From NCBI RefSeq assembly GCF_008329965.1, contig NZ_CP036150.1, positions 1,984,001 through 2,048,000 on the forward strand: DNA of 64,000 nucleotides, given 5' to 3'. A program made the position numbers and the translations under genes. This document shows positions 29,884-35,359 of the stretch, in pieces. Origin of the DNA: Oceanispirochaeta crateris (GTDB lineage Bacteria > Spirochaetota > Spirochaetia > DSM-2461). The notes under the pieces were generated by a model, which had not been told where the DNA came from, ran no database searches, and worked only from the letters and a program-made list of their open reading frames with translations. The first letter of the stretch is position 1. The number at the start of each line of letters is the position of its first letter.

Positions 29884-31434
29884 TCAGGACTGGGCGTTCC
29901 TATTATTCTTTTTAAAATGTGAAATAAATTGCTCTTTTACAGTCTTTTGAAACCTCTGAAAGGCGGGAATCTGCCCAAGGATCAACAGAACAATCACAAT
30001 AAAAAGAACCAAAGAAACGGGTCTTGTCAGGACGGGTAGAAAGCTTCCTTTTGAAACCATCAACGCTCTTCTGAGGTTTGAATCGCACATATCTCCCAGG
30101 ATGACACCTATGATAAGAGGGGCAATCGGATACTTCATCTCCGTGAGGAAGTAGGCAATAATGCCGATGGGAAGCATAAGAAATAGATTAAAAACTCTTG
30201 TTCCCAAAGCATAAGAACCAATGATGCACAATACGGCGATGACAGGCATAAACAAGGATGTGGGAATCCTCAAAACCTTAACAACCTGCTTTGCCAGGAG
30301 GATACCGCAAATCCACATAGCTACCGAAGCAAGTAACAAAATTGCCGTAATATCCAAAATAAATGTTGGATTATCGATATTTAACATGGGACCAGGCTGT
30401 ATACCATGGAGCATCAAGGCACCCAGAAGCATAGCCGCAGGAGGACTTCCGGGGATTCCAAGATTCAGTAAAGGAATCATGGCTCCACCGATACAGGCAT
30501 TATTCGCTGTCTCAGTTGAAATTACGGCTTCAACAGAACCTTTTCCATACTCTTCAGGGTGTTTACTAACCTTTTTAGCCGTACCGTAAGAAACCCACCC
30601 GGCAATGTCTTCACCAATTCCAGGAACAGCTCCAATCCCGACCCCGATGAGAGATGATCGTATGATCGTAGGAATGTTTTGCCCGATGGTTTTAAAATCC
30701 GGCAGTATTTTCTTGAATTTCTGTGTCTCTCCAATCTTAAAATTATCCCGAAGAGACTGGATAATTTGAGGGATTCCAAAGGCTCCTATTAAAACTGGCA
30801 CCAGGTCCAATCCGCCTTCCAAATCACTCATTCCAAAGGTATAGCGTGGAAAGAACTGCAGCTTATCCCGGCCGATAGTAGCAAGGAAAAGACCGATGAA
30901 ACCGGCGATCCAACCCTTATAGACCAAATCCTGACTGGTCAGGGTTCCACTTATAATAATTCCAAACATGGCCAAAAGGAAAAACTCAAAGGAGGTAAAC
31001 TCCAAAGCCAGTGCAGATATGATAGGTGAAAGCAACACTACAAAAATCATACCTATGAATGTTCCGATGGCCGAAGATGTCGTGGTCAATCCCAAGGCTC
31101 TGCCCGCCTGGCCCTTACAGGCTAGAGGATAACCATCTAAAGCAGTGGCTGCAGAGGCGGCAGTCCCGGGAATATTGACAAGAATCGAAGTGTAGCTTCC
31201 ACCATAAACACCTCCGACATAAATCCCCATCAATGCCACCATGGCCGTTGAATGATCCATTCCATAGGTCAAAGTTGTTAACAGAGCAACTCCTAAAGTG
31301 GCTGTAAGTCCAGGAGTCGCACCGAATATGATACCCATGATAACCGAGCCGAAAAGGATCAACATAGTCATAGGGTTTAGCATCATAGCGCCTATATTAG
31401 TAAAAAATATTTGTAATGGTTCCAGAAAACCCAT
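29884..31434 (-). CDS. tctA: Tripartite tricarboxylate transporter large permease TctA
   Basis: 516 residues, about 11-12 membrane helices. TctA family signatures: GSVIMGIIFGATPGLTATLG near the start, YVGGVYGGSYTSILVNIPGT, GIGAVPGIGEDIAGWVSYG and GIPGSPPAAMLLGALMLHGI. With TctB it forms the proton- or sodium-driven channel for organic acids delivered by TctC. The ATG follows AAGGAAG. It lies 12 bp after tctB. The 120-bp gap to the transketolase gene has no clear terminator. Confidence 0.95.
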   Translation of the reverse strand: MGFLEPLQIFFTNIGAMMLNPMTMLILFGSVIMGIIFGATPGLTATLGVALLTTLTYGMDHSTAMVALMGIYVGGVYGGSYTSILVNIPGTAASAATALDGYPLACKGQAGRALGLTTTSSAIGTFIGMIFVVLLSPIISALALEFTSFEFFLLAMFGIIISGTLTSQDLVYKGWIAGFIGLFLATIGRDKLQFFPRYTFGMSDLEGGLDLVPVLIGAFGIPQIIQSLRDNFKIGETQKFKKILPDFKTIGQNIPTIIRSSLIGVGIGAVPGIGEDIAGWVSYGTAKKVSKHPEEYGKGSVEAVISTETANNACIGGAMIPLLNLGIPGSPPAAMLLGALMLHGIQPGPMLNIDNPTFILDITAILLLASVAMWICGILLAKQVVKVLRIPTSLFMPVIAVLCIIGSYALGTRVFNLFLMLPIGIIAYFLTEMKYPIAPLIIGVILGDMCDSNLRRALMVSKGSFLPVLTRPVSLVLFIVIVLLILGQIPAFQRFQKTVKEQFISHFKKNNRNAQS

Positions 31435-31446
31435 AATTTATCTTCC

Positions 31447-32193
31447 TTATCGAATGGTGTAGTAGATGAGGTTCATCAGTTTAATAATTCCGCCTTCCAC
31501 AGGAAGGGGAACCAGCAGAAAATACCGGAACAAGGGGCATAGTGCCAGAGGTACAAAAACTGAAACAAGAGTAACTTGGCGGAATATTTTTGAAGGGATT
31601 TCCAGTTTTTTTCCGATGACCCGGCTTAAGATATTTAAATAAACCAGGAATAGAAGTATGAGGATATCCATATTGTATTTAAGGATTCCCTTCAAGACAG
31701 CATCCAGACCTGTGGCGATCAGAACTATAAAAATCAGACACACAACTAAATAGTGCCTAGTGATTTTTTTTCTGATGACTTCATTATCTGCATAAAAAGC
31801 CGAACAGACAAAGAACAGAAAAAGGGCCAGACTTAAATAAAAATCAATTCGAGGAATATACAGATAGATGAGTGAAGCAAAGCCCAGCACAATAGTGAAA
31901 ATCCTTTTGGTTTTTTCACTTACTTGAATGCTTTTGGTATGTTTTACACCCTCAATAAATGAAGAAGCTCCTCCGGTTTTAACTGAATTGATCAGAAGAA
32001 TCATTCCTAAAAAAAGGATTCCCCCTCCAATGAACAGTGGCAGAAGAGCCGGTGAAACATACCAGGTGCTCTGAACTCCCCCATAGGACTCTTTCATAGG
32101 CATTTTAAAGGCTTCAGTCAACTCCCACAGCCCAAACAGCAGCAAAATGATGCTTGTAATAAAATCGTATTGACGAAGCTTCTTTTCTTCCAT
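31447..32193 (-). CDS. tctB: Tripartite tricarboxylate transporter small subunit, TctB family
   Basis: About 248 residues, larger than most TctB proteins (150-170), with around six hydrophobic segments (ITSIILLLFGLWELTEAFKM at the N terminus). The start is ATG 32191-32193 with AAAGGAAATG upstream; the frame is open further but without a ribosome site. Identification rests on position between tctC and tctA plus the hydropathy pattern; sequence conservation in TctB is low. The gap to tctC holds a 42-nt tandem hairpin repeat. Confidence 0.8.
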   Translation of the reverse strand: MEEKKLRQYDFITSIILLLFGLWELTEAFKMPMKESYGGVQSTWYVSPALLPLFIGGGILFLGMILLINSVKTGGASSFIEGVKHTKSIQVSEKTKRIFTIVLGFASLIYLYIPRIDFYLSLALFLFFVCSAFYADNEVIRKKITRHYLVVCLIFIVLIATGLDAVLKGILKYNMDILILLFLVYLNILSRVIGKKLEIPSKIFRQVTLVSVFVPLALCPLFRYFLLVPLPVEGGIIKLMNLIYYTIR

Positions 32194-32243
32194 TATTACA
32201 TTTCCTTTTAACAATAACGTACACATACAATGTGGGAACAATC

Positions 32244-32409
32244 ACCGGGACTGGATGACAGCCCCGGTTGCATGGGCGAGCAGCAAACGAAGTTTGCGAC
32301 CAGCCCCGGACGCATGGGCGAGCAGCAAACGAAGTTTGCGACCAACCCCGGACGCATGGGCGAGCAGCAGAGTCATCTGCGGCCAGCCCCGGTTTTGGAT
32401 CAAAGATCC
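32244..32409 (-). repeat. Tandem 42-nt hairpin repeat array between tctC and tctB
   Basis: Three head-to-tail units (32261-32302, 32303-32344, 32345-32385) plus partial ends. Units 1 and 2 contain GCAAAC-GAA-GTTTGC. Unit 3 has GCAGA-GTCA-TCTGC at the same place, where an A-T pair became G-C, preserving the stem. Extra stems are ACCGGG/CCCGGT (32244-32249, 32263-32268) and GGATC-AAA-GATCC (32397-32409). In the tctC-tctB mRNA this would be a series of hairpins just after the binding-protein gene. They would plausibly protect tctC mRNA or limit read-through. The unit length of 42 bases keeps a false reading frame open on the plus strand. Confidence 0.85.
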
Positions 32410-32421
32410 CCTTTAACTAAA

Positions 32422-33426
32422 TTACAGTTTTTCGATTCCCAAGGATGCAGGATCTACTTTGGCAGCACCCAGTTCTTTCAGGGTCCAACCAAAATTGGAT
32501 TCAAGATTATCGAATACTTTGTTTGCTTTTTCGCCGTAAGCACCAGACAGAATGTAAAAGTTTTCTTTACCAAAGTTAATCACGGCATCAGAGTTCATTG
32601 CCACAGTAAAAGCATTTCTCAATTTGATTTTGATTGATTCATCAGCGGTTTTCTTGATTGCAAAACCGATAGCCTGAGAAATAGGCAGATATTCACTTAA
32701 AGAAGGAAAGGCTGTAAATGCTGTTGGAATTGTTTTTCCAGCCAGTGTGAAATCATCGGGAACGAGCATTCCTAGCGGTTTTAATTTTCCACCACGAATC
32801 AACTGTGCCTGTTCTGCTGCAGAAGTTACAACTACAGAGATTTCTCCAGTCATGGCAGCATTCTGTGCAGGAGCAGATCCATCATAAGGAATATAGTTAA
32901 ACTTGGCTCCTGTACCATTCATAAGGGCTAATAGGTTCAGGTGGTGAATAGATCCAGCTCCACTTGCACCAGCACGGATTGATCCAGGATTGGCCTTTGC
33001 AGCTGAAATTAATTCTTCTATCGTATTGTAGGGTGCATCGGGTGTAACTGATACGATATCAGGAGATCCACCAATGATAAAAAAGTCCCAAACATTCATT
33101 CTTTCAGGAAATCCGCCCATAACTGCAGAGGTTACACAAGATTCAGAAAGACCACAGATTGTATAACCATCGTCTTCTTTACTGAATGCATCGCTCATAC
33201 CTACAGAACCGGCAACTCCACCAGGTTTGTTAACAACATTGATATTAACACCAAGCTCTTTTGCCATTTCTGCCATTACAACCCGGTTACATGTATCGGT
33301 ACCACCACCGGCTCCCCATACCAGAATGTTTGTAATATCTCTTTCAGGATATTCCCCCTGACCCTCTGCAAAGACCAATCCGGACAGTGCAGCAAGACAA
33401 AGAACCAGTACAAATAGTTTCTTCAT
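32422..33426 (-). CDS. tctC: Tripartite tricarboxylate transporter periplasmic binding protein TctC
   Basis: 334 residues. The signal peptide is MKKLFVLVLCLAALSGLVFA. The mature protein starts EGQGEYPERDITNILVWGAG, with GGTDT followed later by NVVNKPGG-type sequence (NVNVVNKPGGVAGSVG reads as NVVNKPGG in this protein) and GASGAGSIHHLNLLALM, typical of the Bug/TctC family. These proteins clamp carboxylated ligands such as citrate, glutarate or sugar acids. The ligand is unknown. An intercistronic hairpin (33449-33468) lies just upstream of its ribosome site and a hairpin array just downstream. Confidence 0.92.
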   Translation of the reverse strand: MKKLFVLVLCLAALSGLVFAEGQGEYPERDITNILVWGAGGGTDTCNRVVMAEMAKELGVNINVVNKPGGVAGSVGMSDAFSKEDDGYTICGLSESCVTSAVMGGFPERMNVWDFFIIGGSPDIVSVTPDAPYNTIEELISAAKANPGSIRAGASGAGSIHHLNLLALMNGTGAKFNYIPYDGSAPAQNAAMTGEISVVVTSAAEQAQLIRGGKLKPLGMLVPDDFTLAGKTIPTAFTAFPSLSEYLPISQAIGFAIKKTADESIKIKLRNAFTVAMNSDAVINFGKENFYILSGAYGEKANKVFDNLESNFGWTLKELGAAKVDPASLGIEKL

Positions 33427-33517: not shown

Positions 33518-34492
33518 TTATTTTTTAAAGAACACCTCATTTTCGAGGAATTTCCAGTTTTTAACAAAATCACTCTGATTCAAAAGTTTTGTTAATTCTT
33601 GCAGATCAAGAGTATCAAGGAGGTCCCACATTTTTGTCGTCCATCTGGCGTTGGCTTCAAAGCACTCCTTGATATCAACTCTGGTTGGAGATGTATCAGA
33701 AGTTAAATAATCACTGTAACCATATCGTTTTACATAATACACAAACTCCAGATATTCCTGAAAATGTCGTGTTCCAGCCATATAATCCCAGTCCCAACGA
33801 CCATCATTATCATTGATATGTATGTAGTATGGAAAGGGGCTGTCTGCTACCAGACACAAAGCCTCAGCCGGTGTTTCTCCACCGTAAATGGAGTGTCCAA
33901 AATCCAGAGTAACCCCAACGTTCTTATTCCCAATATCATTCAAGAGGCAAAGAGCTTTCGCAGAATTATCAATAAAACAGCGTCCCCGGATCTCATTGGG
34001 TTTGTACTCAATAAACAGTGGTATCTCAGGTTTATAGGCACCGGCTTCTTCCAAACAGGCCACCATCCTCTTCCAAGAAGTTGAGTAATCAGATTGAAAA
34101 CTATATTCATAACCATCCCCCAGAGGACAGCATTGAACTTTGTCTGCTCCAACTTCAGCAGCAAAATCTTTGGCTTCCTTGATAAATCGTACAGCTTTAT
34201 CACGAACGGCCTTATCCGGATGAGAAATACTGCCATTTATGAAGTCATCATCTTTTTTAATATTCACATTCACAGCAGCCATATTAAGACTGTATTTTCC
34301 AAGAAGGCTTTTTACCATGGAAGGGTCATTGACCTCATATGGATATACCAACTCTACTCCATCAACATCCTCTAAAGAGTTCATCATCTTAAATTTTTCT
34401 TCCAGAGTTCTTGGGGCATTGTATGACCTGAATCGATCCTGACTTTCCCCGAGAAATCCGGTGATAACGGCATATTTAGGTTTTAGGCTCAT
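33518..34492 (-). CDS. Sugar phosphate isomerase/epimerase family protein (TIM barrel, AP-endonuclease 2 fold)
   Basis: 324 residues. VDGVELVYPYEV, PLFIEYKPNEIR, VGVTLDFGHSIYGGETPAEA and YYIHINDNDG place the metal-binding Glu, Asp/His and His residues expected in xylose-isomerase-like TIM barrels. Such enzymes isomerise or epimerise free sugars, sugar acids or phosphates, usually with a divalent metal. The substrate is unknown. It is the second gene of the Tct/transketolase cluster, 36 bp after a second, shorter member of the same superfamily. Confidence 0.82.
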   Translation of the reverse strand: MSLKPKYAVITGFLGESQDRFRSYNAPRTLEEKFKMMNSLEDVDGVELVYPYEVNDPSMVKSLLGKYSLNMAAVNVNIKKDDDFINGSISHPDKAVRDKAVRFIKEAKDFAAEVGADKVQCCPLGDGYEYSFQSDYSTSWKRMVACLEEAGAYKPEIPLFIEYKPNEIRGRCFIDNSAKALCLLNDIGNKNVGVTLDFGHSIYGGETPAEALCLVADSPFPYYIHINDNDGRWDWDYMAGTRHFQEYLEFVYYVKRYGYSDYLTSDTSPTRVDIKECFEANARWTTKMWDLLDTLDLQELTKLLNQSDFVKNWKFLENEVFFKK

Positions 34493-34528
34493 AAAATTAT
34501 TCTCTCCTTATATCCCTGAAGCAATTCT

Positions 34529-35359
34529 TCATGCAGGGCTGTTTTCATTTACAAAATCCATATTTTTCTTTAGAAATAAAAGGCCTTCTTTATAGGTCTT
34601 TTCTACATTCTCTGGAGGACAAATAATTTCAATGTCCAAAGAGTTCCGATATCCGGCCTCCTCTAATTGTCCAATCAGCCCACCCCATCGGTTTTTCTCA
34701 TAAGTACCTGGGCTGAGGGATAGATTTTCTGTCCCATCATTCTCACACAAATGGGTAGACATCACTCTTGAGAAAATGGACCGATCCAAAGAAAAAGGAT
34801 CGAGACCACTGCATTGGAGATGGCCGGGATCTAGATTTAAACCAACTTGTGGAATCCTTTTTAAGAAGGCAAGATCAGCTCCAAGACTCAAAGGTTGTGG
34901 TTCAAATGCCAGTTTAAGATTATGAGAAGATAAGATTTCCCAGAATCTTATTACTTTCTCATCCAATTGTTTCTGATGAACCTCATCTTCAGCATGGCCA
35001 GCGAATGACGGCAGAGGAATAGTCACAACCGATGTAAGTTCATGCCTTCTGAGTTTTTCACTGATTTCAGCAGCCTCATTTAAACCTGAGTCGGAATAAA
35101 GAGAGCTGGGAGAATCAAAGGAGGACATCAAAAAATGAGCTACAAACTGACTAAAAGTGATTCCCGTCTTTAAAGAATGCTCTTTTAGCTTTAGGCATGC
35201 ATCATCGGTCCATGCAATCAGTTGCTCCGGATGAAAAATTTCCAGCTGCATGGTATCGAAGCCCCAATCTGCCAAGAAGCCCATACTCTCCAATAAATTT
35301 TCAATCTCAAAGTGTGTCCCATATTTGGAAAGATAAAATGCCGGCGATACCCCGATCAA
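34529..35359 (-). CDS. Sugar phosphate isomerase/epimerase family protein (TIM barrel)
   Basis: 276 residues of the same fold as the gene downstream but not a close copy. DTMQLEIFHPEQ, LAFEPQPLSLGAD, VGLNLDPGHLQCSG and MSTHLCENDG supply the metal-site pattern (Glu, Asp-x-x-His, His). The start is TTG 35357-35359 with GGAG six bases upstream; no ATG is available. It is the first gene behind the GntR-type promoter. Two such enzymes in tandem suggest successive isomerisation or epimerisation steps on the imported compound (inference). Confidence 0.78.
   Translation of the reverse strand: MIGVSPAFYLSKYGTHFEIENLLESMGFLADWGFDTMQLEIFHPEQLIAWTDDACLKLKEHSLKTGITFSQFVAHFLMSSFDSPSSLYSDSGLNEAAEISEKLRRHELTSVVTIPLPSFAGHAEDEVHQKQLDEKVIRFWEILSSHNLKLAFEPQPLSLGADLAFLKRIPQVGLNLDPGHLQCSGLDPFSLDRSIFSRVMSTHLCENDGTENLSLSPGTYEKNRWGGLIGQLEEAGYRNSLDIEIICPPENVEKTYKEGLLFLKKNMDFVNENSPA

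Follow-up and report, generated by a model that had tools for sequence, protein, structure and literature searches.

A tandem array of a REP-like, probably mobile hairpin repeat between tctC and tctB of Oceanispirochaeta crateris

Introduction

The BOX elements of pneumococcus are non-autonomous repeats of small size in which a module is multiplied in tandem. REP/BIME sequences and their RAYT (TnpA-REP) transposases fall into GTAG- and CGTC-tagged classes (PMC3733652, PMC2817692, PMC6006769); the known REP sequences are mostly confined to narrow groups, and the GTAG class has its own transposase. In IS200/IS605 elements and REP systems, the two cleavage sites are both paired by a guide sequence that lies 5' of the hairpin foot (PMC6006769). 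In malEFG, potD and artI, differential mRNA decay is known to favour the binding protein (PMC5927463).

Here we describe a hairpin array in the gap between tctC and tctB of Oceanispirochaeta crateris, analysed computationally in a 64-kb window (the whole stretch of DNA that was studied). The array is best explained as a ~43-nt non-autonomous mobile palindrome of REP-like character that was triplicated in tandem at this site. For the whole reading, a mobile REP-like element with an intercistronic mRNA role at tctC-tctB, we estimate a probability of roughly 0.7.

Results

Three hairpin units lie between tctC and tctB

Pfam searches identified TctC, TctB and TctA in operon order on the minus strand, with a tctC-tctB gap running from 32421 to 32194 of the window. 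The start of tctB was set at the ATG giving MEEKKLRQYD, following the N-termini of its orthologues.

32422..33426, minus strand: tctC, solute-binding protein of a tripartite tricarboxylate transporter (Pfam PF03401, E 1.3e-26)
31447..32193, minus strand: tctB, small membrane subunit (ORF 31447-32241; Pfam PF07331, E 2.2e-7)
29884..31434, minus strand: tctA, large membrane subunit (Pfam PF01970, E 1.6e-138)

Two xylose-isomerase-like TIM-barrel genes occupy window positions 33518-35359; they share the strand of tctC and lie upstream of it. They give a hint that this tripartite tricarboxylate transporter (TTT) system may transport a sugar-acid-like substrate.

The gap contains three head-to-tail hairpin units of 42-43 nt each and two shorter hairpins. 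All three units lie on the minus strand, the one that encodes tctC, tctB and tctA.

32397..32409, no strand assigned: perfect palindrome GGATCAAAGATCC, just past the tctC stop codon; not a unit copy; paired in the centroid fold
32350..32391, minus strand: hairpin unit nearest tctC, stem GCAGA/TCTGC (covariance model R1, 46.7 bits, E 6e-10)
32308..32350, minus strand: middle hairpin unit, stem GCAAAC/GTTTGC (R1, 58.6 bits, E 4.0e-11 in a whole-genome search)
32266..32308, minus strand: hairpin unit nearest tctB, stem GCAAAC/GTTTGC (R1, 69.5 bits, E 1.2e-15)
32244..32268, no strand assigned: hairpin ACCGGG(g)CUG..CAG(u)CCCGGU on the tctB side; not a unit copy; paired in the MFE and centroid folds

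The original prediction of a three-unit tandem hairpin array at this site was borne out. TRF reported a 42-nt array at 32259-32369 with 95% matches and a score of 201, the motif GCATGGGCGAGCAGCAAAC occurred 3 times in the window (with up to 3 mismatches) compared to 0 times in 100 shuffles, and the covariance model recovered each unit. The outer bounds given at that time, 32244 and 32409, include the two short hairpins. The hairpin at 32244-32268 may be the older of the intercistronic structures, next to which the unit was inserted.

The apical stem-loop nearest tctC reads GCAGA-TGAC-TCTGC while the other two read GCAAAC-TTC-GTTTGC. The compensated change that had been described is present in the former: an A-T pair has become G-C, so that pairing is preserved, and the loop is different.

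The unit belongs to a widely dispersed repeat family

Read from tctC to tctB, the unit has the form GG-CTGGTC-(apical stem-loop)-TGCTCG-(triplet)-ATGCANCC-NGG. The hexamers CTGGTC and TGCTCG and the tail ATGCANCC are near-invariant; both stems vary freely but covary. Among 178 distinct units we counted 53 different 5-mers in the apical arms, and the inner stem was Watson-Crick paired in 95% of positions compared to 49% when arms were shuffled among units. In the alignment, the covariation score was 0.42 compared to 0.12 after shuffling, and it was lost on sliding the partner. The retention of stem pairing, thinly documented by three units, is thus strong over the family.

Outside GG-unit-NGG, conservation was ~0.0-0.1 bit (205 solo units). 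Variable but paired arms and unconserved flanks mean that the stems are free, and that the conserved sequence resides chiefly in the internal loop and the tail. The hexamers were invariant in the 30-row alignment, including would-be G.U and U.G positions; this is partly a selection effect, because units were in part collected by their hexamers; it does not extend to the stem covariation or to the borders of tail and flank. The covariance model was built from 30 diverse units, and the one row of alignment A1 with a one-base shift in its 5' flank has a negligible influence on it.

The array was found once in the O. crateris genome, and a DNA search detected similar units in 27 of 98 relatives. 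Searches with the covariance model revealed a fourth O. crateris copy (C1:3038416-3038458, L319), which immediately precedes a tRNA-Met(CAT) gene on its 5' side; among the 98 relatives, 37 had copies, covering 21 of 55 genera. Copy numbers of at least 57 to 65 were obtained for G071, G084 and G067, and of at least 144, 138 and 92 for G098, G114 and G107; for repeat-rich genomes the numbers are minimum values, with 65, 21 or 150 candidates scored per genome. These data support the suggestion that the array is made of a repeat element, and the model is ready for annotating spirochaete and clostridial genomes.

The repeat is not specific to spirochaetes, which had been one suggestion. The exact pattern matched at least 120 stretches in GTDB genomes, with Spirochaetia, several Clostridia, Paenibacillus and Cohnella among the matches listed. 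In an even draw of the phylum, 10 of 295 genomes were positive at a stricter threshold, so the distribution is patchy yet dense in the O. crateris family. Six IMG/VR phage contigs matched the strict pattern, several with the unit directly before a phage gene; the plasmid and phage collections gave no convincing match. A match in a Methylobacterium MAG was discarded as chance, as it had no stem and the covariance model was negative in that genome.

No unit matched an Rfam family at the gathering score; the only such match was a group II intron elsewhere in L095, and a “Vax2os1_2” match was noise. The conserved 13-14 mers occurred in no paper of the literature collection that was searched, which is weak evidence of novelty. 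The hairpin apparently represents an undescribed family of small mobile repeats in spirochaetes, Bacillota and some phages.

Units occupy unrelated sites and multiply in place

The flanks of units are unrelated between sites, and the unit is scattered over so many unrelated positions that a dedicated regulatory array, as originally envisaged, is unlikely. One empty site was seen: G020 has an array between a stop codon and AGGAGGG, and the orthologous junction of G016 lacks it, with GGAGGG right after the stop codon. The same pair of genes overlaps in G007 and G012. Phage L339 carries a unit ahead of the start codon of a tail-type gene, and the relatives L340 and L354-L356 have no unit. We consider it very probable that the repeat is a mobile REP-like element.

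Insertion occurs 3' of GG. Within 32 nt before a start codon we found units at 15 loci in the sense orientation compared to 4 in the control orientation, and several units directly adjoin tRNA genes that begin with GG(G) at their 5' end. A test for target-site duplication gave weak flank similarity that is confounded by the GG preference.

Neighboring units have an identical stem-loop in 28 of 37 pairs, and successive linkers, 4-5 nt long, are identical in 13 of 13 cases. As stem-loops and linkers are shared, most arrays arose by duplication after landing and not by repeated landing. The lack of unique spacers also agrees with the earlier statement that the array is not CRISPR.

Several other arrangements were observed. 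Units lie directly 5' of tRNA genes at L009, L014 and L016 (tRNA-Met CAT and tRNA-Lys TTT occur among L319 and these loci), and at L009 they are repeated inside a tRNA-Glu/tRNA-Lys cluster. In G071, ten near-identical group II intron copies (L320-L329) contain a single unit apiece, placed immediately ahead of the gene for the intron-encoded reverse transcriptase, which indicates that the repeat hitch-hiked with the intron. In several species of Paenibacillus/Cohnella (L095, L096, L105, L125, L158 and L184) the unit is part of a ~280-bp MITE-like composite with inverted ends GTTCAAAAAGTC. A second hairpin family of the same design, GTCGTACC-(free stem)-GGAACGA, occurs at L014, L019, L020, L028, L030, L031 and L036. 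This GTCGTACC family adjoins or nests with the unit in several spirochaete genomes and may share its mobilising enzyme.

A variable triplet covaries with both ends of the element

The triplet 3' of the hairpin is CCC, CCT, GCT or GCC. It was complementary to the 5' flank in 127 of 197 left-terminal units compared to 95 expected, and it matched the right end, 1-2 bases past the tail, in 75 of 170 right-terminal units compared to 56 expected; both expectations come from shuffling, against which the signal was significant, and are uncorrected for relatedness. The right-end signal was absent at offsets 0, 3 and 4. The AGG beside CCT units could partly reflect Shine-Dalgarno sequences. At L138, L337 and L338 the outer triplet is a GCT variant and the flanks turn to AGC in step.

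On the complementary strand the triplet sits 5' of the hairpin foot. Its complementarity to the 5' flank and the right end is suggestive of single-strand transposition: the element would move as single-stranded DNA through a trans-acting, hairpin-recognising nuclease.

One candidate for this enzyme is a RAYT, a Y1 HUH transposase, either acting from elsewhere or no longer present in the O. crateris genome after loss. A palindrome with free stems and high copy number would fit a RAYT-moved REP element, as would a triplet that covaries with both ends like the IS200/IS605 guide pairing (PMC6006769), and one RAYT-like gene lies ~0.5 kb from a unit (L073/L405). However, the GT[AG]G tag is missing, and three kinds of test revealed no link between the repeat and Y1 genes. 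Y1_Tnp (PF01797) is absent from the O. crateris genome, and among the 98 genomes Y1 was equally common in repeat-positive and repeat-negative relatives (8 of 27 and 19 of 71). A unit was near only 1 of 59 Y1 loci, and Y1 is absent from the copy-rich G071 (a single contig), G098, G105 and G115. Clustering of neighbor proteins produced no recurrent transposase, just ABC transporters, response regulators and spurious GC-rich ORFs. We consider a RAYT rather unlikely as the mover.

It could be speculated instead that the repeat represents a so far undescribed, cross-phylum class of single-stranded-DNA mobile palindromes, in which a variable guide triplet pairs with both ends and sets the target, an enzyme other than RAYT/IS200 does the moving, and operons are reshaped by landing at Shine-Dalgarno sequences and tRNA leaders. 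If this tentative idea were true, an altered triplet would mean an altered insertion site (GGG, AGG, AGC or GGC).

A DNA-level palindrome fits the family at least as well as selection on RNA

The compensated change had been taken as a sign of selection on RNA structure, which the family does not support. Inner-stem mismatches comprised 18 A.C and 12 G.T, and the orientation of units to flanking genes was about even (28 and 32, indicative counts from a crude gene call). With mismatches balanced and orientation neutral, a DNA-level palindrome fits at least as well as RNA selection. The crude ORF calls over-call in GC-rich DNA, and we do not trust their placement of 40 of 160 loci inside ORFs of at least 150 codons.

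Another possibility is that the unit is a regulatory RNA motif with a protein-binding internal loop, which spreads by usefulness, for instance as a translation enhancer or barrier before Shine-Dalgarno sequences. The excess of sense units before start codons and the invariance of the internal loop, G.U and U.G positions included, are in keeping with this. On the other hand, there is no strand bias over all contexts, the two mismatch types are balanced, Rfam has no match, and the GG insertion preference alone could explain the nearness to Shine-Dalgarno sequences and tRNA 5' ends. We regard such a motif as improbable.

The array may form an mRNA barrier in the tctCBA transcript

The site had been singled out as the point where expression of binding protein and permease must diverge. 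Relatives also keep a hairpin there: a stable hairpin of unrelated sequence was found in 14 of 15 gaps after orthologous tctC genes. In this count L041 was assigned by reading, as the automatic start call had shortened its gap, and in some cases the next gene was recognisable as tctB solely from its N-terminus. Because these orthologous gaps hold unrelated hairpins, the likeliest role of the array is that of an intercistronic mRNA barrier favouring tctC, for which we see about an even chance.

We propose that a mobile palindrome landed between tctC and tctB and was then multiplied by tandem duplication. In the tctCBA transcript the resulting stem-loops would block 3'-5' decay, which would leave more tctC than tctB/tctA message. 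The tctC-tctB spacer would be the conserved site of a decay barrier that the mobile array supplies in O. crateris. Since the family overall has no sign of RNA-strand selection, this role would at best be a local exaptation.

The array might instead be a neutral passenger, a repeat in a permissive gap that was multiplied by slippage and has no effect; the tctC/tctB ratio would then be set by the two short flanking palindromes, or by nothing. The spread of the family over many unrelated sites, in both orientations to genes, and the separate hairpin at 32244-32268 would agree with this. However, the 230-nt intergenic RNA has a very stable fold (-88.6 kcal/mol, z = -3.6 compared to shuffles) of which the array contributes most, and a hairpin is present in 14 of 15 orthologous gaps. 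We find a passenger less probable than a barrier.

A cluster of intrinsic terminators between tctC and tctB was also considered. The gap has strong GC-rich hairpins, and in some orthologous gaps, such as L043 and L059, a hairpin is followed by a T-run; by inspection, however, no hairpin in the O. crateris tctC-tctB gap is followed by one. Termination is accordingly very unlikely, and an mRNA barrier remains our preferred role for the array.

Comparison with known systems

The unit resembles REP/BIME sequences in most respects. These are imperfect palindromes of 20-65 nt with many copies per genome, their stems differ with pairing kept, a short conserved tag lies beside the hairpin, they occur singly or in clusters, and they are able to act as mRNA stabilisers. 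The unit is likewise short, imperfect and present in many copies, with stems that vary while pairing is retained. In contrast to the REP tags, its own tag, read on the complementary strand, consists of GGNTGCAT and a guide-like triplet that varies. The GT[AG]G tetranucleotide is absent at the hairpin foot, where the invariant flanks are GG-CTGGTC and TGCTCG-NNN-ATGCANCC, and the unpaired CGTC tag (class definition in PMC3733652) is absent from the unit ends. No cognate RAYT flanked by copies was found in the O. crateris genome, the 98 genomes or the 59 Y1 loci. As the tests for tag (GTAG/CGTC) and cognate RAYT both failed, the unit appears to be a new variant of the REP kind and not a member of the known classes.

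Further differences from REP sequences are the conserved, mismatch-containing hexamers and the single consensus in two phyla; head-to-tail arrays, which the unit forms, are rare among GTAG REPs. Free stems, the lack of a resident transposase and one consensus shared by Spirochaetota, Bacillota and phages together pose the question of what moves the family.

Like the subterminal hairpins of IS200/IS605 (PMC6006769), the unit has on its complementary strand a few nucleotides ahead of the hairpin foot that may serve as a guide complementary to both cleavage-site-like ends. Unlike them, it has a triplet and not a tetranucleotide, one hairpin per element, and no transposase gene inside or nearby. 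The triplet covariation offers a cheap prediction on target choice. Compared to BOX elements, no separate end modules were seen around the unit.

Finally, the array is placed like the malE-malF type of stabiliser, with hairpins between a binding-protein gene and the genes for membrane subunits (PMC5927463), and the position is one at which 14 of 15 orthologous gaps have an intercistronic hairpin. It differs in belonging to another transporter class (TTT) and in having an unrelated repeat sequence and a putative mRNA effect. The locus would therefore provide an example of an operon that exchanged its intercistronic hairpin for a mobile one.
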